Shown: piece by piece, positions 17,991-42,048 of the stretch
Layout of the letters: each line of letters starts with the position of its first letter
Position numbering within the stretch: the stretch's first letter is position 1
Assembly: GCF_036711975.1 (NCBI RefSeq)
Contig: NC_091970.1
Location: forward strand, 12,903,501-12,967,500
DNA length: 64,000 nt
DNA from: Onthophagus taurus
Lineage: Eukaryota > Arthropoda > Insecta > Coleoptera > Scarabaeidae
Direction: 5' to 3'
Made by a program: the position numbers and the translations under genes
The notes under the pieces: generated by a model
Told to the model about the DNA's origin: nothing
The model's database searches: none
What the model saw: only the letters and a program-made list of their open reading frames with translations

Positions 17991-18083
17991 AGTAAAAGTT
18001 CACAAGACTTTATTAACAATCGAACATTACAAATACATTATTATTATTATTATTATTCTTTACAATTTTTTCTAAAATTAAAT

Positions 18084-21744: not shown

Positions 21745-21920
21745 TTTACAATTTAATGTTGTACACTTCTACTTGTTATGAAAGAACTACGTCAATACCA
21801 CATTTCGCAGGCGTTTATAAACCCTCACCGCTCCTGAAACTTATTGGGGAGGAGGAGGATGCATCGAGTGCGTTTGTATACATGTATATTTATAACTCCG
21901 TATACCTCTGCATAATAAAT

Positions 21921-23570: not shown

Positions 23571-23671
23571 ATTTATTATGCAGAGGTATACGGAGTTATA
23601 AATATACATGTATACAAACGCACTCGATGCATCCTCCTCCTCCCCAATAAGTTTCAGGAGCGGTGAGGGTT

Positions 23672-23704
23672 TATAAACGCCTGCGAAATGTGGTATTGAC
23701 GTAG
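23672..23704 (+). promoter_or_regulatory. TATA promoter of the zinc-finger/POLB gene
   Basis: TATAAA at 23672-23677 lies in GGTTTATAAACGCC. A start about 31 nt downstream (near 23703) would give a ~44-nt leader with no ATG before 23747. The same sequence is kept in Polinton A. Confidence 0.6.
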
Positions 23705-23746
23705 TTCTTTCATAACAAGTAGAAGTGTACAACATTAAATTGTAAA

Positions 23747-26700: not shown

Positions 26701-27538
26701 AGCTAAGAATGAATTTGAAAAAAATCATTACAAAGCAATGAATAACATCGTATACGGTAAGACAATGGAAAATGTGGAAAAGCGAGTGGATATAAGACTA
26801 GTTACCCACTGGGAATGTCGTCATAAGAAACCGGGCGTGGAAGCCCTAATAGCTAAACCAAATTTTAAATCTTCGAAAATATTTTGCGATAATTTGATAG
26901 CCGTTCAATTGAATGTCGCGGAAGTTCGTTATTGCAAACCGCTGTATGTGGGTTTCAGTATATTAGAGCTTTCGAAAACCGTAATGTACAGCTTCTTCTA
27001 CGATTACTTAAAAGTTAAATATGGAAATAACATAACACTTTTATACACCGATACTGATTCCCTAATCCTAGAAATTACTACTCCCAATGTATATGAGGAT
27101 ATAAAAGAAAATATTGAATTTTTTGACACGTCCAATTATCCGTTAGAGAATATACACAATATACCTCGCGGTCGATCTGTGTTGGGAAGAATGAAAGATG
27201 AATATCCAAACAGGTGCATAACGTCATTTGTTGGAACAGGAGCTAAGGCGTACTGCATCACCTTGTTGAATGATAATGTAAAAAAGGCTAAAGGAGTAAA
27301 GAAATATGTTATAGATAAATATTTAAGCGTGACCGATTATAAACGTGTGGTTGAATGTGGCGGATCGGTTCATAAAAAAATGTACATTTTTAAGTCAGAA
27401 TTTCATACTATGTATACCGAATTAAAGAATAAAATTGCTCTTTCATCGTGCGATGATAAACGATACATATTACCGAACGGATGTAATACTTTGGCGTGGG
27501 GTCATTGGTTGATAAAAAGATTGAATGCGAATAAATGA
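23747..27538 (+). pseudogene. POLB: C2HC/C2H2 zinc-finger plus protein-primed DNA polymerase B, two exons, one frameshift
   Basis: Replicates the element by protein-primed synthesis. Exon 1 (23747-24302) encodes two zinc fingers: C4-x2-C7-x12-H20-x4-C25, and a CEAC...H...H finger. After a 64-nt intron, exon 2 (24367-27538) encodes a conserved Polinton N-terminal domain (CFAWAVTSALHEP), an endonuclease-VII-like zinc motif (CHIC...CDHDHLTGLYRG), 3'-5' exonuclease motifs (YADFEA; HNLSNYD; YLTSDVLLLAD) and polymerase motifs A (LDATNLYG, ~26,298), B (NNIVYGKT, ~26,740) and C (YTDTDS, ~27,045). Total length is about 1,240 codons. Relative to the Polinton A copy, one G is missing at 24941/24942, which shifts the frame to an early stop at 24956. 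All catalytic motifs lie downstream in one long open frame. Confidence 0.92.
24303..24366 (+). other. 64-nt intron in POLB
   Basis: The donor GTAAGC follows ...GATTCAG and the acceptor is TTTTATTTAG. It is a phase 1 intron: the split codon is Gly and the frame then runs into the long POLB frame without a stop. Unspliced, exon 1 ends 18 nt after the donor. In Polinton A the donor is deleted but the acceptor remains. Confidence 0.75.
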
Positions 27539-27593
27539 ATTTAATTTAAAAAAATTGTAAAGAATAATAATGTATTTGTAATGTTCGATTGTT

Positions 27594-27599
27594 AATAAA
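27594..27599 (+). terminator. AATAAA poly(A) signal of POLB
   Basis: AATAAA lies 56 nt after the POLB stop in the ~100-bp gap before the convergent integrase gene. Confidence 0.6.
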
Positions 27600-27635
27600 G
27601 TCTTGTAAACTTTTAAATATAGGTCTTTATACGTT

Positions 27636-28571
27636 TTAAAGAACGTTAGTTTTTGAGATCCAAGAATTATGAGACGGACCTAATCCTAACCATTTCACAA
27701 ACACTTGATTTCCTTTTCGCCGTAGCACTTTTTCCACCAAGTAGACGTCAGGATATTTAACTTTTTGTAATTCCTCTCGATAAAAACCACCCATAATTTT
27801 TTCATTGGATGCATCTTTGAGCAGATATGTTGTTGGGAAAGTATTACGAACAGAATGTATTGTAAACACTTCGTTAGACCAATTGGGAGTATAGTTTTTG
27901 GTGAAGGCGTGTCGATGCTTGCTCACTCTGACGTGATCACCGACATTAAATTTTTTGGTATAAGGATCGGCAATTTTTATGTAATTATATACAGTTTTTA
28001 ACAGTGTCGATGCGTTTCTGTTATTTACCTCGCTAGGTTTCATTCCTATCGTCCTGTGAACTTGGTTGTTATAATCCAGAATTAATTTGGGAAGCAATTC
28101 CAACCAACGATAGTTACCTTGCATACTAAATTCTTTCCACATTTTTTCTTTTATTGTTCTATTAAACCGTTCAACAATAGAACTCTTTAAATTGGAAAAT
28201 GAACTGTAGTGATTGATGTGATATCGTGACATGAGCTTTTTAAAATCCTCATTGTAAAATTCTTTTCCGTTATCCGTTTGCAGATTCTTCGGTATGTTTT
28301 TCCGCTTTTCCGATAGAATTGTTTCCATAGCTCGCGTAACTTCTTTGCCAGTTTTGTTTTTTAGTGGTACAGCCAATCCATACTTTGAGAAAGCATTAAT
28401 AACTGTTAGAATATATTTAAAATTACCATTTGCTTTTGAATAAGGTATCATCTCCACTAAATCAGCTTGAAATAAGTCCGTTAAACCTTTTATAATAACA
28501 CGTCTGCGTTTATACTTTTTCCTCGCGGACGCGTGCAACTCGTTTACGACGGACCTTTTAATATCGCTCAT
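27636..28571 (-). CDS. INT: retroviral-type integrase with C-terminal chromodomain
   Basis: 311 aa. It catalyses strand transfer of element ends into target DNA, producing the 6-bp duplication. The rve-type core has D37 (FQADLVEM), D100 (LQTDNGKEF) and E134 (SIVERFNRTIKEKMW), spaced as in a DDE integrase. The N terminus (ARKKYKRRRVIIKGL) is the basic lead-in usual in Polinton and adintovirus integrases. The last ~45 residues (VYLVEKVLRRKGNQVFVKWLGLGPSHNSW) form a chromodomain, which in other integrases binds modified histone tails and steers insertion. Its ATG overlaps the TGA of the upstream gene (ATGA, 28568-28571). It converges on POLB. The frame is intact. Confidence 0.95.
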   Translation of the reverse strand: MSDIKRSVVNELHASARKKYKRRRVIIKGLTDLFQADLVEMIPYSKANGNFKYILTVINAFSKYGLAVPLKNKTGKEVTRAMETILSEKRKNIPKNLQTDNGKEFYNEDFKKLMSRYHINHYSSFSNLKSSIVERFNRTIKEKMWKEFSMQGNYRWLELLPKLILDYNNQVHRTIGMKPSEVNNRNASTLLKTVYNYIKIADPYTKKFNVGDHVRVSKHRHAFTKNYTPNWSNEVFTIHSVRNTFPTTYLLKDASNEKIMGGFYREELQKVKYPDVYLVEKVLRRKGNQVFVKWLGLGPSHNSWISKTNVL

Positions 28572-28993
28572 TTTCTGGATATTTCAATGAGCAGTTCTAC
28601 CATAAATGGTTTCTTGAGTAAAGTGGTCTTCGTTGTGGGTTTGCAAACTATTTTATCTCCAAAGAAGAGAACATTTAACTTTTTATTTGGATCGAAGATA
28701 CTCCCGTTAATAATCATTTCAACGTCTCCTTCAAATCGGTATTTCACTATTTCACCAATATATAAAAAGTTTATATATTTACTTACGTAACCTAAATTTT
28801 GAATAATGTAATAATTATCCGTTGTATCCGTAGTTCCATCTCCGCTAAACGTAAGTATTGTTGGTTGTTTGAAATATCGTTGTAAGTTTTCACGTTTATT
28901 AAAATGAGCAGCAATGTTGTGTCCGTGTACGTGTTTACCAAACTTATCGATCGTCATACTAGACGAATGTTTTCCGAACTTGCTTAAACTCAT
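28568..28993 (-). CDS. conserved Polinton protein of unknown function, 141 aa
   Basis: The ATG at 28993 starts MSLSKFGKHSSSMTIDKFGK, with a repeated (D/S)KFGKH motif. The rest looks mixed alpha/beta with aromatic and Lys-rich strands (YIIQNLGYVSKYINFLYIGE). I recall similar small proteins next to integrase in insect Polintons and adintoviruses but no assigned function. The two SKFGKH-like repeats and high beta propensity would fit a surface or fibre-like virion part, which is only a guess. Its stop overlaps the INT start by 4 nt, so the two probably share an mRNA. Confidence 0.75.
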   Translation of the reverse strand: MSLSKFGKHSSSMTIDKFGKHVHGHNIAAHFNKRENLQRYFKQPTILTFSGDGTTDTTDNYYIIQNLGYVSKYINFLYIGEIVKYRFEGDVEMIINGSIFDPNKKLNVLFFGDKIVCKPTTKTTLLKKPFMVELLIEISRK

Positions 28994-29062
28994 CTGCTCT
29001 AGTTCACAAACGTCGGTGTTTTAAAACAAAAAATGTGAGAGTCGTATATTTATGATAATATT

Positions 29063-29698
29063 TTAACGTATAATCTCCGCCTCTGTTAGCTCCGATATTA
29101 TTGATGATATTTCATTGACATGTGCAGAATGACCTGCAGTTTGCGAGGCCATCAACAAACGCAGTCTGTCGACAAGTTCGTTGGGATCGTCCCAATACTC
29201 GTATTCGATAAGAGCCCCAGGAACGACTTGTTTTTGTAATGCACCACCGACTTTTTTCTTCGGATTCGGCCAGTATTTAGCCCAATGCACCTTGGGTTTG
29301 TTACCTTCAACGATAGGCTTGATAATATTCTGAAATTTCCCACTGTCGTCCTCAGTAGTCATACCTGCCTCTGGAATGTAATTAATGTACGGAGCATTTG
29401 AACGTAGTAAGATATCTTTGTAGTTGCGCATGTCCTGAATTGTAAATTTGCCCGGTTCGTTTTTAAATAGTAAATCATATAAACCAACGGTTCCCGTATA
29501 TTTGAAGTTTCCAACGTGAATATCCTGATCCTCAAAGTGAACAGGACTGACTCCAATGTAGAAACCTTCGGGAGTTTCGCGAACACCGTATAAACGATCA
29601 TAATCATCTTTTAAATCAGTTGTTAAACCAACAATATACGTTCTGGGCAAAGGATGAAACTGACTCAAAGCGGCTTGTACCTCTGGATTGTTCCTCAT
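29063..29698 (-). CDS. DUF8207-like protein, 211 aa
   Basis: Key blocks are DYDRLYGVRETPEGFYIG, the following GNFKYTGTVGLYDLLFKNEP and WDDPNELVDRLRLLMASQTAG. I recall these from proteins encoded by Polinton-like elements in many invertebrates and from a Pfam domain of unknown function (DUF8207); this is memory, not a search. Its ATG overlaps the stop of the 177-aa coiled-coil gene upstream as ATGA. In homologues I remember, coiled-coil and DUF parts tend to occur together, so the pair may be one split protein, two coupled cistrons, or a single-nucleotide break. No catalytic motif is seen; a structural or assembly role is possible. Confidence 0.7.
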   Translation of the reverse strand: MRNNPEVQAALSQFHPLPRTYIVGLTTDLKDDYDRLYGVRETPEGFYIGVSPVHFEDQDIHVGNFKYTGTVGLYDLLFKNEPGKFTIQDMRNYKDILLRSNAPYINYIPEAGMTTEDDSGKFQNIIKPIVEGNKPKVHWAKYWPNPKKKVGGALQKQVVPGALIEYEYWDDPNELVDRLRLLMASQTAGHSAHVNEISSIISELTEAEIIR

Positions 29699-30228
29699 CT
29701 TTCTTCTATTTCATCTTTAAGTCGTTCTATTCGATTATGTGCGTCCGAAATAAGAGCTCCGGTATCCTCGCTAGAATCGAGGAGTTCTTCTTCTTCGCCC
29801 GGCGGAACTTCATATACTTCTTCTTCTGCATGAGCTAATGGACCAAGAGGAGAAGACGTGGGAGAAGATACCAACCTTTTTTCAGGAGTCGATGTAGCAA
29901 ATTTTCGTCGTTGTTCTTTTAATGGAACTTTCGGTTTTCGAATAAAATATTCGGTCTCGGTTTTAGCTGGTACGTCAGAAATATCCGGCGAGTAGCGTTG
30001 TATCTTAGATATCAATTTTTCTTCTTTTGGAGATAAACTTCGTTTTGGAATGGATAGTAAAGGCGCAGTGTCAAGTTTTGCGACAATATCCTGTAAGGGT
30101 CTTGCGATGGGTGCATATGCGGTTTCCGACCGAATCCTTGACTCCTCTAAGTCTTCTTTTAAAGAATGAATTTTGTCTCTCACGACTTCTCGTGCCGCGA
30201 TAAGTTCTGCAGCTATCGTCTTGTTCAT
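29695..30228 (-). CDS. coiled-coil, Ser/Pro-rich protein, 177 aa
   Basis: The first ~60 residues (AAREVVRDKIHSLKEDLEES) look like a coiled coil. The middle is Ser/Pro/Lys-rich with SP and TP dipeptides (SLSPKEEK, ATSTPEKRL), followed by an acidic stretch (EEEVYEVPPGEEEELLDSSE) and a final helix. It probably forms one functional unit with the DUF8207-like gene that starts within its stop codon. It is of the kind found at this place in insect Polintons; function unknown. The ATG at 30228 is the only reasonable start and lies 51 nt from the ATPase stop. Confidence 0.65.
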   Translation of the reverse strand: MNKTIAAELIAAREVVRDKIHSLKEDLEESRIRSETAYAPIARPLQDIVAKLDTAPLLSIPKRSLSPKEEKLISKIQRYSPDISDVPAKTETEYFIRKPKVPLKEQRRKFATSTPEKRLVSSPTSSPLGPLAHAEEEVYEVPPGEEEELLDSSEDTGALISDAHNRIERLKDEIEER

Positions 30229-30279
30229 TGTATGATGTATGTGAAGTTACTACGAACTGTACAGCTGAAGTCGTTAGTT

Positions 30280-30984
30280 TTAAACTTCAATGAATTTATC
30301 AAAACCCTTACGGTAACGTCCCTTAGATACACTACAATCTAAATCAATAACTAGGATGCCGTGTCTATTCTCCCAACAAGCATCGCTAATTTCCTTTAGC
30401 CGATGAAACTCCATATCGCTCATTATGTGATCTTCAAATACGTGTTTTAAATTTGTTAAGTCTTGTTTAAATAACACCAAAAAGTTACAATTATCGCGAA
30501 CTAATTGTTTTGGAATTGCACTATAACTTTGACAAATTAGAAAACAATCAATGTTTTTATGTCGACCATACGAAAAAAATTCCTTAATGACATTTTGACC
30601 TGTACAGGAAACATCGTCAAATACGACTACCGAATATTCTTTCGCATCTTCCGGTCGAATGAACTCGTCTATATTAGAAAATTCATAGTAACCGCAATCT
30701 TTTATAGGTTCAATTAAACGTCTTAAAAAATCGTACTTATTTTGGTATAACGAATTAGAGCATAAGTACAAGTTTAGGAAGCGCAACCCATTACGTGCAA
30801 CTAAAAGCGATAACATAGCATTTGTTTTTCCGACACCTGAGGGTCCTACAATTAAACCTCGCTTACATTTTCCACCAAATAAATTGCTGTGTCTTGTAAA
30901 GTGTTCTTCGACCGAACCATTACTAAAATTTACTATAGGCAGTGTTAGAAGTTGCGGTAAACATTTTAATTTCTCGTCGATCAT
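30280..30984 (-). CDS. ATP: FtsK/HerA-type genome packaging ATPase
   Basis: 234 aa. It powers DNA translocation into the capsid in related viruses. Walker A is GPSGVGKT at residues 47-54, Walker B is VVVFDD at about 119-124, and a sensor-like CQSYS block follows. This is the A32-like arrangement. I start it at the ATG at 30984 because translation from there gives the conserved MIDEKLKCL and the promoter lies just upstream. The longer frame to 31032 would need a non-ATG start inside the promoter. Polinton A has the same start but lost everything after about residue 83. Confidence 0.95.
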   Translation of the reverse strand: MIDEKLKCLPQLLTLPIVNFSNGSVEEHFTRHSNLFGGKCKRGLIVGPSGVGKTNAMLSLLVARNGLRFLNLYLCSNSLYQNKYDFLRRLIEPIKDCGYYEFSNIDEFIRPEDAKEYSVVVFDDVSCTGQNVIKEFFSYGRHKNIDCFLICQSYSAIPKQLVRDNCNFLVLFKQDLTNLKHVFEDHIMSDMEFHRLKEISDACWENRHGILVIDLDCSVSKGRYRKGFDKFIEV

Positions 30985-31011
30985 GATTCTCGTACTAAAT
31001 GAATTGGATAA

Positions 31012-31047
31012 GACTGAATGAAAATATAGCAAAAGAAACTATATATA
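31012..31047 (-). promoter_or_regulatory. TATA + initiator promoter of the ATPase gene
   Basis: On the minus strand TATATATA begins at 31047, and TCAGTC, a perfect match to the arthropod initiator, has its A at 31015. This is 32 nt downstream, the canonical spacing. The leader to the ATG at 30984 would be about 30 nt. Confidence 0.7.
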
Positions 31048-31055
31048 CATATATT

Positions 31056-31061
31056 TAAGAA

Positions 31062-31100
<39 letters not shown>

Positions 31101-31171
31101 GTATAATACCTTAACCATTTAACCTAACATAACCTAACCTAACCTAACCTAAGGAAGAGGAGGAAAAATGG
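31056..31171. repeat. (AAT)n microsatellite and TTAGG-type run (Polinton B)
   Basis: An (AAT)n tract at about 31060-31100 is longer than its counterpart in Polinton A. It is followed by CCTAA-type units (31113-31150; TTAGG on the minus strand) with one CATAA variant. The tract lies in the promoter-distal gap between the PPPY gene and the ATPase. Confidence 0.8.
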
Positions 31172-31483
31172 TTACCACTCCTCCTCCTCTTCCTGCTCAT
31201 CCCGCACTTCATACGGGGGCGGAGGCGCTGCAGGTGTCGGTGTCGGAGGTTCTATCCCAGTCGAACAATGGTGTATGTGCATGTTTTGAACATGCACCTG
31301 CCCTCTCACCACTGCCGACTCTGAGACAATACTGTTTACCTAAGAAGATTATGAAATTAAAAACGTGCAAAAAAGATTATAGATATAGCCTACCAGCTGA
31401 AACAGGGTATCTACTTTGACCTCCAATGACGCAACTCTTCGCTCCAACGTGAGCACCCTCCCGAAGTTGTTGCTACCGGACAT
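31172..31483 (-). CDS. small two-exon PPPY-motif protein, ~85 aa
   Basis: Exon 1 is 31483-31394 (30 codons). The intron is 31393-31340 (54 nt, GTAGGC...TTCTTAG, phase 0). Exon 2 is 31339-31172. Without splicing the product would be 44 aa with a hydrophobic tail. Spliced, it has a heptad-like helix (LTLERRVASLEVKVDTLF), a region with HIHHC, a Pro/Thr stretch, the motif PPPYEV and an acidic C terminus ending in Trp. PPxY motifs recruit Nedd4-type WW-domain ubiquitin ligases and act as late or entry motifs in several viruses; whether that applies here is inference. Its ATG is 8 nt after the stop of the 330-aa gene, implying a shared transcript. No homologue recognised. Confidence 0.6.
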
Positions 31484-31491
31484 CTTTTTAG

Positions 31492-32484
31492 CTAGGAAGG
31501 GAAGTTATTAGTATGTAAAGAAGACAAAATGAATTCTGCTTTTTTCATTTCAACGGTTAATGTTGCAACGGTGATGTCGAGTGACGTTGTTAAAGAGTGG
31601 TTAGAACTCGACGCCAGCCCTTCCCTAAACTGTGCAAGTTCTCTCAAAGAGGTCTGCAATTGAAGTACCTTTACATGGAGGTCTTTATAAAAATTTTGAT
31701 ACAAAATATTAATTTCGGTCAAAATCTCCTCTTTGGTTGTTTCTACTGCTGCACACATTGCATTTGAAAAAAGGCTGGCAGGTACATCGGAAATGACTGA
31801 AGTAGCGGGAATTGTGTCCACCCTTAAGATTTGTACTTTCGGGCTTAATGAGGGAATTTCTATGGTAGGAATGTTTATGTTAGTAGGGGGAGTGGGAATC
31901 GACGAAGCTTTAGAAGAAGAAGCCTTAGAAGAAGAAGCCTTAGAAACAAAAGCTGCATTAATAGCTTTAAGGTATGTCCGGTTTTCGGTGCAGTGTTGGG
32001 ATACCGCCATTAAAGAAAGAGAGTCGTTGGACTCATCGCCGCTAGCCATTTCCGAGTGTGTCACTTCAACCTTTGACAGAGTCGCAGGTTCAACTGACAC
32101 ACGCTTGTGTTTGGTACTTCGCGAACGAGCACGGGTCTCCCGTCGAAGCTCTCTATACTTATCTGGCGGTAACCACACACCTGCACCCTTCTTCCGGTGT
32201 TCACGGTTCCCCGACTTTCGACGAAGTGAAAGTGAAAGGTGTTTCACATTCTTATCGTCGACTTTCGAGGAACCTGCGATGTTTGGAAGCGCCGTAGCTT
32301 GCTGCACATTAGATTCAACGTTTGGATCCATCGGCTGCTCATTAGGCTGCACGTTTGGATCCAGAGCCTTCTCAACAGTCGACATGTTCAACAGGTTTAT
32401 GTCAAAACTGTTTAACAGAAAGGATTCCTGGCTGGCGAAACCCGGAGCAGTTAAATCAATTTGACTAAAACCGTCTTGAGACAT
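31492..32484 (-). CDS. 330-aa Polinton protein of unknown function
   Basis: The ATG at 32484 follows a splice-acceptor-like TTATCAAG directly. The N-terminal 90 residues are Asn/Pro-rich and disordered, with repeated (D)PNVQ/PNVE units. A basic segment follows (LRRKSGNREHRKKGAGVWLP and RRETRARSRSTKHKR; nuclear-localisation-like or nucleic-acid-binding). A Ser/Ala repeat (SKASSSKASSSKASS) and a Pro-rich linker come next, and the C-terminal ~90 residues are helical (ETTKEEILTEINILYQNF), probably a coiled coil. I recognise no family. The position behind a dedicated TATA promoter and a multi-exon leader suggests a strongly or specially expressed product. The C-terminal third also survives in Polinton A. 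Confidence 0.7.
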   Translation of the reverse strand: MSQDGFSQIDLTAPGFASQESFLLNSFDINLLNMSTVEKALDPNVQPNEQPMDPNVESNVQQATALPNIAGSSKVDDKNVKHLSLSLRRKSGNREHRKKGAGVWLPPDKYRELRRETRARSRSTKHKRVSVEPATLSKVEVTHSEMASGDESNDSLSLMAVSQHCTENRTYLKAINAAFVSKASSSKASSSKASSIPTPPTNINIPTIEIPSLSPKVQILRVDTIPATSVISDVPASLFSNAMCAAVETTKEEILTEINILYQNFYKDLHVKVLQLQTSLRELAQFREGLASSSNHSLTTSLDITVATLTVEMKKAEFILSSLHTNNFPS

Positions 32485-33207
32485 CTTGATAAGAAAAGAA
32501 AAGAAAATTAATTAATTTTATTTTAATAAAAAAAACATGTATACTTACATCGCTTGATGAAAAATACAGTTGCACGTTAAAATCTAACTGCAGAGGGTGC
32601 TTGTCAACAAAGTGCTGAATGATAGGATATGAATGATAAAACGTTCGAAAAAATAAAGTTATGCTTACCAATAAAAGTTAACTTGAAAAAATAGAAGGAG
32701 CTATAGGAATGAAAAACACAACCTTAAAAACAATATATGTCAAGAAAGGAGACTATACTTACCAGAAAAAAGTTGCTGAAATTACGATGTTAAAAACTGA
32801 TCGGTCTAATCGAACTGATCAGCAGTAAGCTCCTGTAGGAATTGGGAAAAAAATATCAATTTAACATAACAAACAAATAAACAAGTTGTACTCACAAAAA
32901 CAAAGTAGAACGAGCTGTCATGATGAAATAAAGCAAGAATATATTATATAAACATGGAAGTAGAAAAGGTCACTTACCAAATAAAACACAGCAAAAAAAG
33001 AGAAAGCTGAATGAGCAAGGATGTCTAGGAGTGGAAAAAACAATTTTAAATATTATATAAACATGCAAAACAAATATAGTTTTACTCACCAAAAAAGAGA
33101 AAGTTGTAGAAAGAGCTGTAGTGATGGAGAGAAAATGAACGTTATATAAACATGATAATAAAGAAGGTTGTACTTACCAAAAAACTGAAGAACACAAACA
33201 CTTAAGT
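32485..33207 (-). other. leader of ~7 micro-exons with introns of ~54-65 nt
   Basis: Downstream of a TATA box, minus-strand splice signals alternate regularly. Inferred exons: 33207-33178, 33115-33090, 33024-32978, 32914-32896, 32832-32763, 32700-32669 and 32614-32549, then the coding exon at 32484. Donors are GTAAGT, GTGAGT, GTAAGT, GTGAGT, GTAAGT, GTAAGC, GTAAGT. Acceptors are CTACAG, CTCCTAG, TGACAG, CTACAG, CTATAG, TTCAG, TCAAG. Intron lengths are 62, 65, 63, 63, 62, 54 and 64 nt. None of the exons contains ATG while several introns do, so the first ATG of the spliced mRNA would be 32484. The exons are pyrimidine-rich and similar (CTCTTTCTACAACTT, CTCGTTCTACTTTG, CTCCTTCTATTTTT). Three introns share CATGTTTATATAA. 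This reads as a tandemly duplicated exon/intron cassette. Confidence 0.65.
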
Positions 33208-33239
33208 GACTTTCAAAGGCTGGGAGGTGCCTTCTTATA
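33201..33239 (-). promoter_or_regulatory. TATA promoter of the leader/330-aa transcript
   Basis: TATAAG begins at 33239 on the minus strand. An initiator-like TCACTT has its A at 33207, exactly 32 nt downstream, the same spacing as in the ATPase promoter. Confidence 0.6.
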
Positions 33240-33745
33240 GTAGAGTAATGAAGGGGGGCGTGGGGTGGGGCGTGACAAGGGGGAGGAGTGGGGAATGGGC
33301 GGAGTTAGAGTGGGGGTACTTTTTTTCTGGCTCTACTTTCCTGGCAACCGGGGGGGGGGGGGAATTTTAAATTTCCCCCACTCCCATCCCCACTCTTCCA
33401 TCTCCACTTTGGGAGGAGCCTGAGGAGGAGCATGGGAGGAGCATAGGAGGAGCTTCAATAAACAATCCTTTTCCCTTTTTCTTTTTTTTTTTTTTTTTTC
33501 TTCCTTTTTTCCCCTTTCTTTCTTCCTTTCTTTCTTCCTTTTTTTCTTCCTTTTTTTCTTCCTTTTTTTCTTCCAATTTAATACTTTTTCAATGTACAAC
33601 CCAAGTCATACCAACCCAACCCAATGTATACATACCATGTATTCATTTAGGTTAACTATTTTTTCTTTTAAATTAAAACAACTTTTTACACTTTTTACAA
33701 TCTTTTATTATTATTATTATTAATTTACAATCTATAACTGACAAT
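33240..33745. other. G-rich tract and oligopurine/oligopyrimidine tract upstream of the leader promoter
   Basis: 33247-33420 is dominated by G runs (GGGGGGCGTGGGG, GGGAGGAG, a 14-G run near 33349), with a GGGCGGAG GC-box-like site. 33425-33470 repeats GGAGGAGCAT-type units. 33478-33575 is TTTCTTCC repeats (GGAAGAAA on the minus strand), a candidate triplex or nucleosome-free region. The 3' end of the neighbouring leftward gene and an AATAAA (minus strand, near 33,705) lie beyond. Open frames in the purine tract are low-complexity artefacts. Confidence 0.5.
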
Positions 33746-33754
33746 GTTTATATA

Positions 33755-34087
33755 CTAAACCATACATAAAGAACAATCCTTTCTTGCCGATGGTGGACCA
33801 TCAATATGCGTTTCCCAATGAGGCAAATTATAATGTTCAAAACAGGGCAGCTTGCTTTGTAATCGCTCATCGTTTCTATACTTCAACGGTAATTTAAACC
33901 AAACCGCCGCCAAATCTAATGGCTTTACTTTAATGATATAATAATCGATTGGTAAATAACATAATTCGTAGTTTTTAATATTCGCAAAAGATAAATCAGA
34001 TTCGTATCTTTCCATAATATCCCACACTTTATTAATTATAAAAGTTGAAAGTCCCAATCTGGTAACTAACCGCCAAAGACGTTCCAT
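33755..34087 (-). CDS. unknown Polinton protein, 110 aa
   Basis: I start it at the ATG at 34087 (MERLWRLVTRLGLSTF), although the frame is open for 37 more codons upstream without an ATG. It is helical with a Leu/Pro-rich middle (YELCYLPIDYYIIKVKPLDL) and ends in a short Cys-containing tail (DCSLCMV). The upstream extension overlaps the 3' end of the 159-aa gene. I tested two possible splice joins to that gene and neither keeps the frame. I recognise no domain. Confidence 0.5.
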   Translation of the reverse strand: MERLWRLVTRLGLSTFIINKVWDIMERYESDLSFANIKNYELCYLPIDYYIIKVKPLDLAAVWFKLPLKYRNDERLQSKLPCFEHYNLPHWETHIDGPPSARKDCSLCMV

Positions 34088-34143
34088 CTTGAACTGCTCT
34101 ACCGCTACTACCCGTCTGCCTTTCTCAATTCGTTTACATATAG

Positions 34144-34623
34144 TTATAGATGTCTGAATACGTATGAAAATAAATAAAAAACATTCGATAAGGAGCACAT
34201 ACTTGGTCTCTTTTTATGATAGGGACACATCGGCGCACCAACCTCCAATTTGCATTCATTTTCCGGCAATTCTTTTACCGGTATTGTTAAAATTCTTCTT
34301 AAAAATGTAGCTTTCTCACGTCCTTTTACGTACGCTACTTTTGTCGAACGACACAAATAATAAACGATCTCATCGAAACGAGACGCAGGAACAAACCCGT
34401 CGTTCCAATCAATACAATGATGATGACTCATTAACCAATTCGCCGTATTGCGAAATTTGGTAGATAGTGAAGAAAAGCTTCGACTAGGTTGAAACACGTA
34501 ATGACTTATACAATGATTACTGTCGTAAGAAGCCAGTTCCTTTGGGATAAATTCTTCATCGTTTATCGTGAAACCTTGAATGTCCAAAATAATAAAATCC
34601 CTTTGAAAAACCATAATATCCAT
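34144..34623 (-). CDS. conserved Polinton protein of unknown function, 159 aa
   Basis: The sequence starts MDIMVFQRDFIILDIQGF. It contains an HHHCIDWNDG block, and the C-terminal part has CPYHKKRPSMCSLSNVFYLF, a Cys/His arrangement (C-x2-H...C) that could bind zinc. I recall proteins of this shape (N-terminal DIQGF, C-terminal CxxH...C(S/A)xxNV) as frequent in Polinton-like loci of insects and cnidarians, always without known function. It follows the capsid gene by 73 nt in the same direction, so it probably belongs to the virion or late gene set. Confidence 0.65.
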   Translation of the reverse strand: MDIMVFQRDFIILDIQGFTINDEEFIPKELASYDSNHCISHYVFQPSRSFSSLSTKFRNTANWLMSHHHCIDWNDGFVPASRFDEIVYYLCRSTKVAYVKGREKATFLRRILTIPVKELPENECKLEVGAPMCPYHKKRPSMCSLSNVFYLFSYVFRHL

Positions 34624-34696
34624 AACATACCACTATATGCAAACGTTTCCTTCGATGTTTAGAGATACACTAAATGACGTTGCTTCAACAGTACCA

Positions 34697-35956
34697 CTAT
34701 ATTAATTGCTTAACCATTTTCGTAAGAGGCGAATACACAAATGCTCTGTCATGCAGAATTAATGCGTAAGCTGTCGTACCTTCCGGAATTGGATTTTTCG
34801 TTGAATACTCGATTTTTATTTCTACTCCGCTTTTATGTATTGCTTCCTGTTGATACGTGCAATCGATTCCAATTAACGGCGCGTAAGTTTTAAATTCTTC
34901 CGGTGAAAACAAAGGTTCGCTTTCTTGATAGTAGTATGCTTGCTGAAATCTTGAATACATATCATACAAAATCGCATAGTGATTGTTATCAAAATCCACA
35001 TTCAAATTATCGTACGGAAAACGTTCTCCATTCAAGAAAACGGTTACGTTCGTTAAGTTTATATTATCAAATAATGCCATGTTTCCTTTAAATATACCCT
35101 TTCGATTTGTTTGAAATCCGATGATTATAAATCTAGGCGTTTCCAATTGTGGAGCAGTTTTGACGGCCCAAGATTGCTTAGTAGTTTGAGGTAATTGAGG
35201 GTACTCGTGTATTTCCCACGATCGAAAAGGAACGTGAATGTCTACGTTTCTTTCTGATAGTTTTGTTAATGCCAACTGTTCGCGTAATCCCACCGCCACG
35301 TGAGGAACTCTCCATATAATTTTATTAATGATCAATTTCAATTTTTCGTCGTTCGGAGCGGCTGCTGGTTGAAAGATGACGTCCGTATCATCGTGTCCGC
35401 GAATTAGCACAAGTTCCTGTCGAACGTTCATCATGATCTTTCTGAAATCTTCTGCGAATCCTAGCAACGTTTTTAGCGGAACGCTAAGACCGAAATTTCC
35501 ATTTTTATCTAAAGCCTTTGAAACACCCGCTATATCATCTTTCCAAGGTTTTATGTGCCAACCGGCATTCTCTAATTTCACCACCTCGTTCTGCGTAGAT
35601 GAGAAATAACCCTTCATGCATGAGCTTATACCGACGTTCCGCACACCATCAACATGTACTCCGTTAATAAGATATCGAATATCGCTAAACATAAATGCAA
35701 CGGGATTGTTAACCAATTGCCCCGTTGCGCTGGCATCTTTTGTTATACTTCCGTCCGCGGCTAACTTACGAACGCTACCCTCGACGTATAGATAACTCTC
35801 GCTCGGTAAAGTATAATTATCTATTTCCGGAATTGAAATTCTAATTTCGTCATTGTTATCGAACGTGGTCGATCCAAACGGTTGATGCGAATGGAATTCA
35901 TAACTTACGATAGAGTGATCTGTTTTTATCTTATCCGTTACTTTTAAAATGTCCAT
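34697..35956 (-). CDS. MCP: major capsid protein, double jelly-roll (hexon-like)
   Basis: 419 aa. It forms the trimeric capsomers of the icosahedral shell predicted for Polintons. The second half carries the most telling blocks: TPRFIIIGFQTNRKGIFKGN and FPYDNLNVDFDNNHYAILYD, which I recognise from Polinton major capsid proteins. It is rich in predicted beta strands, and its length is within the usual range for hexon-like Polinton capsid proteins. The ATG overlaps the stop of the preceding Arg-rich gene as TAATG. The frame is intact. Confidence 0.9.
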   Translation of the reverse strand: MDILKVTDKIKTDHSIVSYEFHSHQPFGSTTFDNNDEIRISIPEIDNYTLPSESYLYVEGSVRKLAADGSITKDASATGQLVNNPVAFMFSDIRYLINGVHVDGVRNVGISSCMKGYFSSTQNEVVKLENAGWHIKPWKDDIAGVSKALDKNGNFGLSVPLKTLLGFAEDFRKIMMNVRQELVLIRGHDDTDVIFQPAAAPNDEKLKLIINKIIWRVPHVAVGLREQLALTKLSERNVDIHVPFRSWEIHEYPQLPQTTKQSWAVKTAPQLETPRFIIIGFQTNRKGIFKGNMALFDNINLTNVTVFLNGERFPYDNLNVDFDNNHYAILYDMYSRFQQAYYYQESEPLFSPEEFKTYAPLIGIDCTYQQEAIHKSGVEIKIEYSTKNPIPEGTTAYALILHDRAFVYSPLTKMVKQLI

Positions 35957-36147
35957 TACTTTAACACTTCGTATCCTAACTGAACTAAATACCTTCGATT
36001 GACTGGTGATAATCGATGAATGGATCGTCTTCTACTGCCGCTACGTTGACTGATGACGCGCGCTTTATAGTTTTCTCCATTAAACAATTTTCTCGCTCTG
36101 TCTCTTCTTGACCACCGCATTCTTTTGTTTTGATATAACACTGTCAT
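35956..36147 (-). CDS. Arg-rich 63-aa protein, core-protein-like
   Basis: I choose the ATG at 36147 because the longer frame would need a TTG start. About one residue in four is Arg or Lys, with clusters such as RMRWSRRDRARKL and RSGSRRRSIHRL, and an aliphatic C terminus (YLVQLGYEVLK). It sits between the penton-like and major capsid genes, 23 nt after the former and overlapping the latter by one base. Size, charge and position recall the small basic DNA-condensing core proteins of adenoviruses, but that is analogy; no sequence family was recognised. Confidence 0.6.
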   Translation of the reverse strand: MTVLYQNKRMRWSRRDRARKLFNGENYKARVISQRSGSRRRSIHRLSPVNRRYLVQLGYEVLK

Positions 36148-36170
36148 AACGTTAGTCAAATTTAAATAAT

Positions 36171-36902
36171 TCAATTTATCGATCTCAGGTGAACTCTCAC
36201 TGTTATTTCTTCTTCTCTGAAGTCTACCAAGTTTCCGTCCTGATCAAGTATACGTACTGTTAAGCTACTAATCACGTTCGTTAAAACCGGTAAATAAATA
36301 GGTAGTTGTGGTGATTCGATTATTTTAAAACCTGCCGGAACGTTTGGGAAAAAATGATATAAAACGTGCACGGGAACTCCGTTATTATACGATCCCGTCA
36401 CTAAATTACAATAAATTTGTAAGGCGTTCGTTTTATTTATGTTTACTACGAAATCGGATTCCACTTCCGTATCTCTAGGTAATATTTGAGGCTTGAAGCC
36501 AAGTAACGGCCCTATAGAATTATCGCATGCAAAATTAATTCGACGGGTACTTTTTATTAAAGAATGTTGTGTGTTATTATTCCCCTTAATCCTTATTACG
36601 ACACTTTTAGCGTGTCTTTTGTCTAGCTGTTCATTCACGAACTCGGCAATATCATCAATATCGTACGTTCCAACAGGTACTATTATATTGTTTTTAAAAT
36701 GTCCTGTCTTATCTTCGTATTGGATTACGTTGTTGTTTTTATTAACGTTTGCTAAACTATTAAACGTTTCGAAATTCAAAAGAGCCAACTCGTAACTACC
36801 AAATTCGTTCAAATAGATCGGAGGATTAAAATTACAAGTCAATTCAGATGACTTTCCAGTCAACGTAAATGTATATGTCGTGTGTATTGCTTCTTTCTCC
36901 AT
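36171..36902 (-). CDS. minor capsid protein, penton-like single jelly-roll
   Basis: 243 aa, expected at the five-fold vertices. The N-terminal half has the pattern I know from Polinton minor capsid proteins: TFTLTGKSSELTCNFNPPIY, then GSYELALLNFETFNSLANV, then VPVGTYDIDDIAEFVNEQL. The C-terminal half is strand-rich. It lies between the protease and the major capsid gene, all leftward with short gaps. The frame is intact from ATG to TGA. Confidence 0.85.
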   Translation of the reverse strand: MEKEAIHTTYTFTLTGKSSELTCNFNPPIYLNEFGSYELALLNFETFNSLANVNKNNNVIQYEDKTGHFKNNIIVPVGTYDIDDIAEFVNEQLDKRHAKSVVIRIKGNNNTQHSLIKSTRRINFACDNSIGPLLGFKPQILPRDTEVESDFVVNINKTNALQIYCNLVTGSYNNGVPVHVLYHFFPNVPAGFKIIESPQLPIYLPVLTNVISSLTVRILDQDGNLVDFREEEITVRVHLRSIN

Positions 36903-36932
36903 TACTTCTGAACGTCTAAACGTCTCTAGACT

Positions 36933-37313
36933 CTAATAGGTTCTTTTATTACTTAGAAACTTCAGACACAACTGTCCGCAATTTTGATCTATTTCTCTTT
37001 GATATCGACAGTAATTATACTTTACTTGACCACCCCTACCGTCTGACAGCAAATATTGTTCAATTTCTAACGGCGGTCTTAAATCACCGTAACTGTCGAA
37101 ATAGTATATGTCCTTGTCGTCTTTCTTATAGGCGACCCAATGAGTCCCTCGTCCTTTCAAGTTATCCAAGTTAACAATACCTCTTTCCTTCTTTTTAATC
37201 TTACTCGGGAGATTGTCTCTCATAAATATACCCCGAAAATGTGGAATTTTTAGTACTTTCGCAAACTTTTCCAACTCGACGTTAGTTAACGCACGACGAG
37301 GTATTCGAACTAG
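36933..37313 (-). CDS. PRO: adenain-like cysteine protease, probably expressed by -1 frameshift
   Basis: This is the virion maturation protease. His is in GTHWVAYKKD, the acidic partner in YYFDSYGDL, Gln in REIDQN and the nucleophile Cys in NCGQLCLKFL. The conserved FRGIFMRDNLP block precedes the His. The frame is open from 37313 (reading LVRIPRRALTN...) but has no ATG before the internal MRDN, which lies inside the conserved N-terminal region. The upstream gene ends at 37310 exactly on a slippery A AAA AAC, and the -1 frame from there is this one. A non-AUG start (TTG at 37274) or a missing splice site are alternatives. About 127 residues after the shift. Confidence 0.85.
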   Translation of the reverse strand, partial: LVRIPRRALTNVELEKFAKVLKIPHFRGIFMRDNLPSKIKKKERGIVNLDNLKGRGTHWVAYKKDDKDIYYFDSYGDLRPPLEIEQYLLSDGRGGQVKYNYCRYQREIDQNCGQLCLKFLSNKRTY

Positions 37314-37319
37314 TTTTTT
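37275..37319 (-). promoter_or_regulatory. candidate -1 ribosomal frameshift site
   Basis: Heptamer A AAA AAC (37319-37313, minus strand) is in the 0 frame as ..A AAA AAC followed at once by TAG. A -1 slip continues into the protease frame. A weak imperfect stem-loop (CTCG at 37300-37297 with CGAG at 37278-37275, inner CGTT/AACG) starts 12 nt after the heptamer. CTAGTTC repeats on both sides of the A run. Confidence 0.55.
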
Positions 37320-38227
37320 GAACTAGTGGTTATACCGCAACCTTTCTTATAGGGCTTATTGAAGTAACCTGTGCCGCCAACATTATTCCCCTTTCCTTCA
37401 ATAAACAAACCGCAACCTTTCTTATATGGTTTTATATAAAATCCGCTACCTACGGCCTTTGCTTCCATAGCCTTGTTATGTCTTCGTTCTTCATCTAATT
37501 GCTCTCTAGCTGTTTTCGCGTTGTTTATAGTTCTTGCAATAGCGGCAGCACCACCGCCGATACTACCTAGGGCACCTAAAGCTGCGAACAGGGGAATTAA
37601 AGGTAAAAATCCTCCCGTTTTCGGAATTCGAATAACTCGACCTCTAGGTTCGGAAATTCTTTTTCTTATCTTTTTCAAAGCTCCGTACGCCGCTTTAACG
37701 TTTGTCAACAAATTCTTAGCACCTGATCTCGATATTGCGTTGCGAGCGAATCGAAGTGCATCTACAAAAGATATAGCTCCACCACGCTTTACACGCGTTC
37801 GGACTTTTTTTAAAGGTCGTCGACCCGTACGATTTCTTTTTCTACCTACGCCCATACCGACCGCTACTTTTGCTTTCATTAAGGCGGCAACTGCGGACGA
37901 TGCCACTTTTTCTCCAAGAGTAGACTCTTTATTTCGTATTCGTTCTTTCGCTGCTGTATACAATGCTCTGTCTGCGTCGTGTCTAAATTTTAAATTTGAA
38001 CTGACCGTATATGCTATATCGTGTTTCTTACACGCTTCGTCTAATGGATTCACGCCTCGATCTCCTCTCGATAATCTCTTTTCCAACTTGGTACCCGGTC
38101 CACAAAAATTATATCCTGGCAAATGAAGTTCTATCGGAAGTTTATCTATCAACTTGTTAAAAAATCCTCGACCAATTCGTTTGCCTGTCAAACGATAACT
38201 GTTACGATTAGGTTCTAACAAATTCAT
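37310..38227 (-). CDS. phospholipase-A2-like minor virion protein, 305 aa
   Basis: Residues 36-73 (LPGYNFCGPGTKL ... PLDEACKKHDIAY) carry a Ca-loop-like YNFCGPGT (39-46) and the catalytic pair H69-D70. This is the arrangement of parvovirus VP1-type PLA2 domains, used there to breach endosomes. A basic stretch follows (GRKRNRTGRRPLKKVRTRVK). Next is a hydrophobic Ala/Gly-rich segment (LPLIPLFAALGALGSIGGGA) that could insert in membrane. Near the C terminus are two copies of Y-x-KPYKKGCG. Between them IEGK-G fits the adenain cleavage consensus (M/I/L)-x-G-x/G, as in adenovirus protein VI. It ends at a TAG directly after a slippery heptamer leading into the protease frame. Its role is probably membrane penetration during entry. 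Confidence 0.85.
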   Translation of the reverse strand: MNLLEPNRNSYRLTGKRIGRGFFNKLIDKLPIELHLPGYNFCGPGTKLEKRLSRGDRGVNPLDEACKKHDIAYTVSSNLKFRHDADRALYTAAKERIRNKESTLGEKVASSAVAALMKAKVAVGMGVGRKRNRTGRRPLKKVRTRVKRGGAISFVDALRFARNAISRSGAKNLLTNVKAAYGALKKIRKRISEPRGRVIRIPKTGGFLPLIPLFAALGALGSIGGGAAAIARTINNAKTAREQLDEERRHNKAMEAKAVGSGFYIKPYKKGCGLFIEGKGNNVGGTGYFNKPYKKGCGITTSSKN

Positions 38228-38448
38228 TTTATAATTTCACTCCTTCTTCCTTTTCTTCACAGTTAAAAACTAGAAATGAAGCTCTGCTGTTGTGCTTTAA
38301 GCTTTTATTCCTTTTAAATATTTTACAAAAACAATTTTGCTCTTAATTTATACTTAAATCTATTAATATTATTATTATTATTATTCAGCTACACTTAAAT
38401 CTACTAATATCCTAAAAATTAATTGTTACTCAGTTAAAAACATTTCGA

Positions 38449-38673
38449 TTACTCTACAATGCTAAAACGTTCTTGATATATATTTAATCTATAATCTACA
38501 TCTAAATATTTTTCTAATAACTTATTTACGTTTCTTATCCTAGTCTTAAATCTAATTCCGTCCAACATCTTTTCTTCCCAGTCACTTATCCTTGATTGTC
38601 TGTAAGCAAACGTCCAAGTGTGCATTCGGTACACTCTATTTTTCGATTCGCAAAACGTCACTTTTTTTTCCAT
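38449..38673 (-). CDS. conserved small Polinton protein, 74 aa
   Basis: I start it at the ATG at 38673 (MEKKVTFCESKNRVYRMHTW). The pattern KNRVYRMHTWTFAYRQSR, then W at 54 residues from the C terminus and a helical Arg-rich second half (DGIRFKTRIRNVNKLLEKYL), resembles small proteins I remember from Polinton loci of other invertebrates. Function unknown. It follows the 299-aa gene by 10 nt and precedes the PLA2-like gene by 221 bp of AT-rich sequence with a possible TATTTAAA box near 38,318. Confidence 0.6.
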   Translation of the reverse strand: MEKKVTFCESKNRVYRMHTWTFAYRQSRISDWEEKMLDGIRFKTRIRNVNKLLEKYLDVDYRLNIYQERFSIVE

Positions 38674-38683
38674 TTTATTCACT

Positions 38684-39648
38684 TCACATCTTCATTAATG
38701 CGTGCAAATCTAAATCCAGTAATATCTTATCCATACCGTATACGAGCAGTTCTTTAGTTACGCACAAATGTTCACTTGGTGCACCGTTTGAAGCAACCAA
38801 TATATTCGATTTTATATCACCTTGCATTGTTGATACCACATCGATCACGCTATCGTAATAATTTTTATATTCCATACACTTTAATACTTCTACCCTACTC
38901 GAAACTAAATCGCTAAGTTTCCACAATTCGTGTAACGAGTCGTAAGCCAGGTAAAATATTTCTGACCCCCTTTCCATTTTCAACACTTTTCGTACATTTT
39001 CTATCCATTGGCTGCTGCAGGTCACGCCGCTTACAACGAAATGTGGTGGTGTCGATAAATCACCAACAAAACTATTCATAATCAATTGTCTGCTATTAAT
39101 CACATTTTTCCATTCGTCTTCGGTAAAAGTTATGCATTGTCCTTTTCCCATTAATCTTATAACCGGATCAAAATGTAGATTGGCAGACATGCCAACCGAT
39201 ATCCATTTCGTTCGACTTTTATTTAAATAATATGTACTCTCGGAGAATAATGGCGCTTGATTACCTTTTTGGAGATTATTTTTCACTGCTTCATTTAATA
39301 CTACGTTACTTGTGAAAGGTAACTTTCCACAATTTTCTACATAATGTTGTTGATTGCTAGGAAATACGTACTCCGCTAAGTCGGAAGCCAACAAATTAAT
39401 TCCATCGAATACCACATCCTTTTTTCTTTGATTATCACTTCCTAGCGACACATTTGTTGCAGTTGTCTCATTACAATTACCCTCCATTTTGATGTTTCGG
39501 GCAGGTTTTTTATTTTCACCCTTTTCAAATGAATTTACAGCAGCTCTCTTAGTTGGACATTTGGGGTTCGGTCTGGTTGCCACTAAACATCAATATTATT
39601 GTTTACATTAGTACATTATTTACTTGTATTACATTTGAATTACTTACT
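38684..39648 (-). CDS. rightmost Polinton gene, 299 aa, two exons with split start codon
   Basis: The open frame begins at a GTG (39583) with no ATG until codon 33. An intron 39647-39583 (65 nt; donor GTAAGT, acceptor TGTTTAG) would join a final A of exon 1 (39648) to TG of exon 2 and create an ATG exactly in frame (MATRPNP...). Exon 1 from the TATA-directed start contains no ATG. The protein has a basic, disordered N terminus and a central block MGKGQCITFTEDEWKNVI that loosely recalls the DNA-binding strand/helix of PC4-type single-stranded DNA-binding proteins; that likeness is weak. Otherwise unknown. A start at the ATG at 39487 (267 aa) is the alternative. Confidence 0.6.
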
Positions 39649-39749
39649 CGTTACGTTAAAAATCCTCTGTACTAAATGCACCAAAAATCTACACGATATT
39701 TTTAATATGTACTAAATACACAAAAACCTTACTCTGAAGCACAACACTC

Positions 39750-39783
39750 TGCGGTACAACTTCGACCAACGTTTGTATTTATA
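39750..39783 (-). promoter_or_regulatory. TATA promoter of the rightmost gene
   Basis: TATAAATA begins at 39783 on the minus strand. A start about 33 nt downstream (A at 39750, in CGCAGAGT) would give a ~103-nt first exon without ATG up to the donor at 39647. Confidence 0.6.
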
Positions 39784-39916
39784 GCAATACATAAGGTTGC
39801 TGGTGGGGGGAGTAATATTTCACATCATTACCGAATATATCTATTATACATGTTCTAACATGTCATTATATCGTGAGACGTCAGACAAAACGCATGACAA
39901 ATTTATTAAGAAGCTC

Positions 39917-40520
39917 TTAAAAAATATCTCGCAGGTGGATCATGACTCATCTACTACTAACAAGTTAGTTGACCTCCTCCTCAAACCTGTCCTCCCAAAA
40001 AATTTGCCGATTCAAGAACCTCCTCGCATATTCTTAAATACCCGTACACCTTTACATAATAAAATAAAAAATATCTCGCAGGTAAGTTATGACTCACTTA
40101 TTTGTATACCTACATATCTCAAAACCGTATACCTTTGTGTATAATAATAAATTAAGAGATATATCGAAAACATTAACAGTTCATTGAGAAGCGTCGAAGG
40201 ATAAACATAGTAATTGTTTTCATCTAGGTAAACAGGTTACATATAAAGATAAATTTTTAATAACATAACCTAAATAAAGATACATTTTTAATAAAGATAA
40301 ATTTTTAATAATTTCGTCAAAATAACATGACCTTCTCAAGTTAATTGACCTCCTCCTCTCTTCATCGAATCTCCTCCGACCCTCAAAAGAATCGCCGATT
40401 CAAGAACCTCCTCTCCTCATCGAACCTCCTCTGACCCCCAAAAAATTTGCCGATTCAAGAACCTCCTCCTAGAACGCAGGTTCGAGGAGGAGGTTCTTGA
40501 ATCGGCGAATCTATACTACT
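39917..40520. repeat. Polinton B right terminal inverted repeat
   Basis: 604 bp, the inverse of 23004-23570 with a few indels (the right copy has ~35 bp more). The terminal ~200 bp are practically identical to the end of Polinton A. It carries the same tip hairpin and CTATACTACT terminus. The 115-codon open frame across this repeat is chance. Confidence 0.9.
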
Positions 40521-42048
40521 GACATCTTGGAGCATGTTGGAGATAAAAATCCAAATGTGCCCAAAACGTGATATTATGACGTTATACGCCGTTCTGAGCC
40601 ATGTTTGAACTTTCTATCACTTTTGGTTCCGATAATTCTGTTGACCATATTTGTGATATTCAGGCGCCAAATGACATCTTGGAGCCTGTTGGAGATAAAA
40701 AACAAAATGTGCCCAAAACGTGATATTATGACGTTATACGCCGTTCTGAGCCATGTTTGAACTTTCTATCACTTTTGGTTCCGATAATTCTGTTGGCCAT
40801 ATTTGTGATATTCAGGCGCCAAATGACATCTTGAAGCGTGTTGGAGATAAAAAACAAAATGTGCCCAAAACGTGATATTATGACGTTATACGCCGTTCTG
40901 AGCCATGTTTGAACTTTCTATCACTTTTGGTTCCGATAATTCTGTTGACCATATTTGTGATATTCAGGCGCCAAATGACACCTTGGAGCGTGTTGGAGAT
41001 AAAAAACAAAATGTGCCCAAAACGTGATATTATGACGTTATACGCCGTTCTGAGCCATGTTTGAACTTTCTATCACTTTTGGTTCCGATAATTCTGTTGA
41101 CCATATTTGTGATATTCAGGCGCCAAATGACATCTTGAAGCGTGTTGGAGATAAAAAACAAAATGTGCCCAAAACGTGATATTATGACGTTATACGCCGT
41201 TCTGAGCCATGTTTGAACTTTCTATCACTTTTGGTTCCGATAATTCTGTTGACCATATTTGTGATATTCAGGCGCCAAATGACATCTTGGAGCGTGTTGG
41301 AGATAAAAAACAAAATGTGCCCAAAACGTGATATTATGACGTTATACGCCGTTCTGAGCCATGTTTGAACTTTCTATCACTTTTGGTTCCGATAATTCTG
41401 TTGACCATATTTGTGATATTCAGGCGCCAAATGACATCTTGGAGCGTGTTGGAGATAAAAAACAAAATGTGCCCAAAACGTGATATTATGACGTTATACG
41501 CCGTTCTGAGCCATGTTTGAACTTTCTATCACTTTTGGTTCCGGTAATTCTGTTGACCATATTTGTGATATTCAGGGGCCAAATGACATATTGGAGCATG
41601 TTTTAGATAAAAAACAAAATGCGCCCAAAACGTGATATTATGACGTTATACGCCGTTCTGAGCCATGTTTGAATTTTCTATCACTTTTGGTTCCGATAAT
41701 TCTGTTGACCATATTTGTGATATTCAGGCGCCAAATGACATCTTGGAGCATGTTGGAGATAAAAAACAAAATGTGCCCAAAACGTGATATTATGACGTTA
41801 TACGCCGTTCTGAGCCATGTTTGAATTTTCTATCACTTTTGGTTCCGATAATTCTGGTGACCATATTTGTGATATTCAGGGGAAAAATGACATCTTGGAG
41901 CATGTTGGTGATAAAAAACAAAATGTGCCCAAAACGTGATATTATGTCGTTATACGCCGTTCTGAGACATGTTTGAACTTTCTATCACTTTTGGTTCCGA
42001 TAATTCTGTTGGCCATATTTGCGATATTCAGGGGCCAAATGACATCTT

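Follow-up and report, generated by a model that had tools for sequence, protein, structure and literature searches.

A probable programmed -1 frameshift site between the PLA2-like gene and the adenain-like protease frame of a Polinton in Onthophagus taurus

A Polinton (Maverick) element in the genome of the dung beetle Onthophagus taurus carries the heptamer A AAA AAC at the junction between its PLA2-like gene and the adenain-like protease frame that follows it. The element lies within a 64,000-nucleotide stretch of contig NC_091970.1 (assembly GCF_036711975.1, forward-strand positions 12,903,501 to 12,967,500), which is referred to here as the window and supplies the coordinates used below. 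Our analysis suggests that the junction is very probably a programmed -1 ribosomal frameshift site that makes a minor PLA2-protease fusion. A preliminary description of the window had read the junction in this way, and the comparisons of related sequences given below support that interpretation. We infer slippage because the junction is conserved: the same type of heptamer, in the same phase, recurs in divergent families of the element, with the protease frame lacking an evident start of its own.

Phase of the probable slip site and identity of the protease frame

The PLA2-like gene ends in A AAA AAC TAG on the minus strand, and the 0-frame phase reported earlier for the heptamer is seen directly at 37319 to 37310. 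The junction reads TCA AAA AAC TAG in the PLA2-like frame and, one base back, TTC AAA AAA CTA GTT CGA in the protease frame; the heptamer is decoded as AAA AAC in the 0 frame and as AAA AAA in the -1 frame. Upstream, the protease frame reaches back only to a TAG 10 nucleotides (nt) before the 0-frame TAG, which confines a slip to the 10-nt overlap TTCAAAAAAC, of which the heptamer takes up 7 nt in the A AAA AAC phase.

Heptamers of the form X XXY YYZ (Y being A or T and Z not G) were counted on both strands of the window, minus the last 400 bases of each. There are 1280 of these, and 81 lie in phase within frames of at least 100 codons. Only one of the 81, the junction's own, leads into a long -1 extension, which runs for 125 codons; the next best extension is 5 codons. 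The junction shows an in-phase X XXY YYZ heptamer and a long -1 frame entered there only and, as described below, the site is kept across divergent relatives.

The frame entered by a -1 slip is classed as an adenain-like (Peptidase C5) protease on the basis of profile comparison, predicted fold and aligned catalytic motifs. The six solved structures that best match the model of the window protease (pLDDT 90.5) are all of adenovirus protease, led by the human adenovirus 2 proteinase (1nln, E 3.9e-7). In the profile comparison with adenain (1avp, E 1.2e-5) the catalytic His and Cys motifs (HW, CG) are aligned, and S273R of African swine fever virus matches slightly better (E 6.9e-6). Pfam Peptidase_C5 is matched by 5 of the 22 aligned protease relatives; the window protease itself has no significant Pfam match.

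As the preliminary description had stated, this frame has no ATG before its conserved core: the first ATG is codon 34, which comes after F29 and G31, both invariant in the 22 aligned relatives. According to the structure model, a start at codon 34 would cut off the helix at 14-23 and nearly all of the strand at 29-34, which the model and the profile alignment place as the counterpart of the adenain amino end. Among 86 predicted protease homologues, 31 are called from the first helix or later (18 + 13), as expected if no upstream start exists.

Recurrence of the junction in the host genome and among homologues

A search of the host genome (290.8 Mb, 33 contigs) with the protease gave 150 matches, and two further queries revealed more families. 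We fetched 130 loci, namely 110 of the 150 matches and 20 short pieces picked by eye from other score groups. Automatic phase analysis places an in-phase heptamer inside the overlap in 116 of the 130 loci, 96 with A AAA AAC and 20 with T TTT TTA. This bears out the comparison across copies proposed in the preliminary description; where one cluster has changed, it has changed in sequence and not in phase. The 14 loci without an in-phase call are L046, L055, L060, L064, L066, L067-L069, L091-L093, L136, L140 and L144. In L064, L067-L069, L091 and L092 the junction word is still present in the sequence and was mis-phased by the automatic analysis. L046 has a deletion at the slip site, and in L144 the heptamer is lost and reads GAG AAA AAC. 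The latter, a sibling of cluster F that carries a stop, is the sole K-N end without A AAA AAC.

Downstream sequence was available for 13 representatives, and these form nine clusters with less than 80% protease identity between them over about 52 residues. A AAA AAC is found in eight of them (A, B, D, E, E3, F, G and H) and T TTT TTA in one (C), in phase in every case. The overlap is 10 nt long in family A, 16 nt in family B, 19 nt in families D and E, and up to 127 nt in others. In none of the 13 heptamer representatives does an ATG follow the slip site before the L-T/S segment of the protease is reached, and 10 of them have none before the FRG motif.

The codon before AAA in the host-genome copies is TCA, GCA or ACA, CAA or AGA; the amino acid varies and the third base, A, is constant. 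From codon usage in five genes, the chance that a K-N end is encoded by A AAA AAC is 0.085 per family, as against the eight clusters that have it.

The upstream protein of the window matches PF08398 (E 4e-12; 46.6 bits against a curated cut-off of 23.9) and is 100% identical to the Onthophagus taurus protein P0087; P0093, from the same species, is 56% identical. Two protein searches, from which the best 120 of 942 and the best 120 of 1350 matches were taken, gave 185 distinct PLA2-like proteins. The entries with organism labels are eleven from beetles, one from the hoverfly Episyrphus, and three with bacterial labels that resemble contamination. Among these listed matches, 157 of the 185 carry K-N among their last six residues, with none to two residues after it. 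The preliminary description had also looked to other insects for conservation of the junction, and most of the listed proteins do retain the K-N end expected from it. An A must stand before AAA in A AAA AAC, so amino acids that lack an NNA codon (F, Y, H, N, D, C, M and W) are not expected directly before K-N. Such a residue stands there in 0 of the 157 proteins, compared with 80 and 29 of the 157 one and two places further up. None of the 185 listed matches contains the protease motif, although the length filter admits fusions.

Other searches yielded less. Scans of a viral contig collection with the protease and PLA2-like alignments gave no relatives, and a scan of genome contigs gave only 18 bacterial PLA2-like loci, which were not used; L111-L128 are short PLA2-like matches to the same domain encoded by bacterial (Bacillota) genomes. 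Pairing of PLA2-like with protease proteins by presumed shared contig was set aside as too near chance, with 8 pairs against 1-5 in six shifted controls.

Downstream structure and alternative routes to the protease

Several observations weigh against frameshifting as the explanation of the junction. The first is the lack of a constant RNA structure at the distance expected of a stimulator, 5-9 nt downstream. The window copy belongs to family A, where an 8-bp stem (arms in Table 1) is predicted to close 8 nt after the heptamer; its stability is ordinary (z of -1.1 and -0.5, rank 11 of 41 windows). The downstream stem had been called weak in the preliminary description, and this judgement stands, with the 8-bp stem as an addition to it. 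Family D has a z of -2.5 but ranks only 7 of 41 windows, families C and E are weak (rank 3 and 4, z -1.4), and for families F and H weak or no downstream structure is predicted. Two families differ: in family B a long structure is predicted from 8 nt onward (z of -3.6 and -3.8, the lowest of 41 windows), and in family G (L137, and downstream in L153) a 15-bp hairpin is predicted 9 nt after A AAA AAC, with a z of -5.5. The family G hairpin is the strongest candidate for a stimulator that was seen. Since downstream structure differs in this way, the stimulator may not be the same in every family or may work by other means. A conserved long-range stem shared by families A and B was considered and rejected, as its 3' arms, set against the coding frame, are displaced from each other by 2 nt; we claim no covariation for it because its CC/GG pairs follow from conserved Pro and Gly residues.

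The remaining points of this kind concern exceptions and scope. The PLA2-like and protease frames are continuous in L055 and L140, which are natural fusions, and protein P0017 is a fused copy. L093, from a divergent Polinton, has no heptamer and has instead an ATG that overlaps the PLA2-like stop (CAATGA). In clusters C (with its sister C2) and G, an ATG stands upstream of FRG within the first helix, and several protease relatives have open reading frames (ORFs) that begin MKLP, which would fit an ATG that overlaps the 0-frame stop. In addition, the K-N end is missing from 28 of the 185 PLA2-like homologues, of which 16 show G[LIVMF]FL close to the C-terminus and 12 show neither feature. The same motif is found near the end in 27 of the 157 with K-N, and, judging from the DNA of family C, the GxFL ends of the 16 could correspond to T TTT TTA. 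Finally, the nine clusters are not fully independent because they share ancestry, and the evidence at the DNA level comes from one genome, with other species seen as proteins only.

Some of these exceptions are what one would expect if the protease were translated from its own start, by termination-coupled reinitiation or internal initiation at an AUG overlapping the stop or in the first helix, or at a near-cognate codon, with the heptamer incidental. The stop-overlapping ATG of L093 and the first-helix ATGs of clusters C and G fit such a route, as do the many protease homologues predicted from M(K)LP just before the core and the PLA2-like tails (KNxQ) that are compatible with a CAATGA junction. 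The M-started homologues are probably over-represented, since predicted-protein databases tend to list ORFs that have a start. In all 13 heptamer representatives, however, ATG is absent before the L-T/S segment, and near-cognate codons have no common position among them. An own start also leaves unexplained the conserved phase, the A-ending codon before K-N and the change to T TTT TTA. We consider it unlikely as the general explanation. In some lineages a start codon may nevertheless be used alongside slippage or in its place, as is suggested by L093, a possible switch from frameshifting to reinitiation.

Slippage of the transcribing polymerase on the A or T run, giving some frame-shifted mRNAs, appears quite improbable. 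Homopolymer runs of 6 to 10 are present at the junction in all 12 representatives measured, but most have runs of 6-7 only, which is short for transcriptional slippage. Moreover, such slippage needs no codon phase, whereas the ribosomal phase is found in all nine clusters.

Removal of the stop by a short intron that joins the frames would account for the isoform names given to related genes (P0087 isoform X1; P0057 isoform X2) and could make use of AG dinucleotides close to the junction. The 30 nt upstream of the -1 frame contain only 10-13 pyrimidines in the 13 representatives, no acceptor position common to the families was seen, and family B has no AG between the heptamer and the L-T segment. 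Splicing also leaves the heptamer unexplained, and its likelihood is very small. Decay or assembly error, by which the protease would merely be out of frame in dead copies, draws on the stops that some protease copies in the host genome carry and on the split polymerase-like gene of the window copy, but its chance is negligible given an identical 129-residue protease encoded by 31 copies (the window's included), the same out-of-frame arrangement in nine divergent clusters and the lack of any in-frame relative among the 185 listed.

Fused copies, ATG-started proteases and a supported intron had been named in the preliminary description as observations that would speak against frameshifting. The fused copies are few. 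An ATG start without the heptamer occurs once among the fetched loci, in L093, to which the first-helix ATGs of clusters C and G and perhaps stop-adjacent ATGs in other lineages have to be added. No consistent splice acceptor or pyrimidine tract was seen at the junction.

The host element and relation to known systems

The element has the hallmarks of Polintons: an rve integrase, an A32-like ATPase and a double jelly-roll capsid protein, all above the Pfam cut-off, together with terminal inverted repeats. The chromodomain of the integrase falls just under the cut-off (23.9 against 25.1 bits). By placement only, long ORFs at 24339-27538 occupy the position expected for a protein-primed DNA polymerase (PolB). 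In the studied copy this polymerase-like gene consists of two overlapping ORFs in different frames, so the copy may be defective; the counterpart in a neighbouring Polinton copy reads through the split point. Part of a second Polinton copy lies at 18068-22525 in the opposite orientation, its arms 99-100% complementary to stretches of 23194-27554. Inside the element, 33333-33723 is of low complexity, with Lys-rich and Phe/Ser-rich open frames on the two strands.

Table 1. Coordinates in the window of the junction features and of neighbouring parts of the element
Feature	Position	Strand	Basis
Slippery heptamer A AAA AAC	37313..37319	-	Direct reading; phase analysis; uniqueness count in window
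0-frame stop TAG of PLA2-like gene, adjoining the heptamer	37310..37312	-	Direct reading
-1-frame stop TAG, upstream bound of the protease frame	37323..37325	-	Direct reading, phase analysis
Predicted downstream stem, 5' arm, AUACCUCG, 8 nt after the heptamer	37297..37304	-	Prediction, z not significant in family A
Predicted downstream stem, 3' arm, CGGGGUAU	37228..37235	-	Prediction
PLA2-like virion-type protein, 305 residues, ending ...GITTSSKN; upstream product of the slip site	37310..38227	-	PF08398
Adenain/C5-like protease frame, 129 codons stop to stop, without evident own start	36933..37322	-	ORF, structure model, profile and fold matches
Next gene downstream of the protease, penton-like by position only	36171..36911	-	No Pfam family above cut-off
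Double jelly-roll major capsid protein	34697..36001	-	PF21738, E 3.7e-101
Polinton, approximate extent	23001..40522	.	Between terminal inverted repeat pieces 23001-23568 and 39919-40522

At its end the PLA2-like protein has at least one repeat of the KPYKKG(C/L)G type, and similar motifs end most of the homologues inspected; in the window, two copies of KPYKKGCG are seen in the tail at 37330-37480. In adenovirus, the tail of pVI serves as protease cofactor or cleavage site, and the repeats may have a comparable role here.

If the junction works by frameshifting, most ribosomes would decode AAA AAC and stop at the TAG, giving the PLA2-like protein, and a minority would shift back by one base on the heptamer, A AAA AAC or, in one cluster, T TTT TTA, and read on in the -1 frame. 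The product would be a PLA2-protease fusion, made in minor amounts, and no start other than this route is evident for the adenain-like protease. If retroviral gag-pro is a guide, the fusion would bring a little protease into particles as they assemble; there the protease would cut capsid proteins and perhaps free itself.

A broader reading, to which we give about an even chance, is that this gag-pro-like dosing is ancient and insect-wide. The Polinton protease would then be permanently startless and made by a -1 slip off a PLA2-like minor virion protein, with A AAA AAC and T TTT TTA switching while function is kept, and with the covalent tether taking the place of activation by a minor-protein peptide (pVIc), as in adenovirus. 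Frameshifting at this junction, if it occurs, would mean that an adenovirus-related lineage with double-stranded DNA (dsDNA) sets the dose of its maturation protease as retroviruses do, and would account for the truncated or startless look of insect Polinton protease genes. The junction also bears on whether Polintons assemble particles, since selection for a low-rate fusion of a capsid protein with a protease makes sense mainly where virions form. For annotation, it suggests a rule by which a PLA2-like ORF ending in K-N (perhaps GxFL) is followed by the protease in the -1 frame.

Retroviral gag-pro and gag-pol frameshifting in the -1 direction uses heptamers of the A AAA AAC and T TTT TTA types. 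The Polinton junction has the same heptamers in the same phase, and in both cases a structural-type protein would be extended at a low rate by a protease without its own start. The differences are that the element here is a Polinton with a dsDNA genome, that a PLA2-like protein stands upstream, that the protease is a cysteine protease of the adenain type and not an aspartic one as in retroviruses, and that downstream structure is not constant. Adenovirus makes its protease as a gene product of its own, whereas the Polinton protease would arise attached to a putative membrane-active capsid protein. The two proteases share the same fold (1avp, 1nln; pVI-derived cofactor).

The same gene pair is known from Spodoptera Mavericks, where CAP (PLA2) and PRO are given as separate ORFs of about 258 and 133 residues in one tandem series (PMC5803895). 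The accessible portion of that paper proposes no frameshift link between them, and its two mentions of 'frameshift' concern errantiviruses. The preliminary description knew of no account of such a site in Polintons. For the PLA2-protease junction this stands, in that our literature search, covering the accessible portions of papers, recognised none that describes a frameshift there. It is qualified by a 2024 preprint (PMC11071296), which hints, in its passage on KnotInFrame predictions, at hypothetical slippery sites in adintovirus Penton genes and at a potential Hexon-Adenain fusion ('Hexain'). That proposal, which concerns a related group of viruses, likewise joins adenain to a capsid protein; in the passage concerned, the partner is the major capsid protein and the fusion occupies one sentence without sequences, whereas here the partner is PLA2-like and the junction recurs family-wide.
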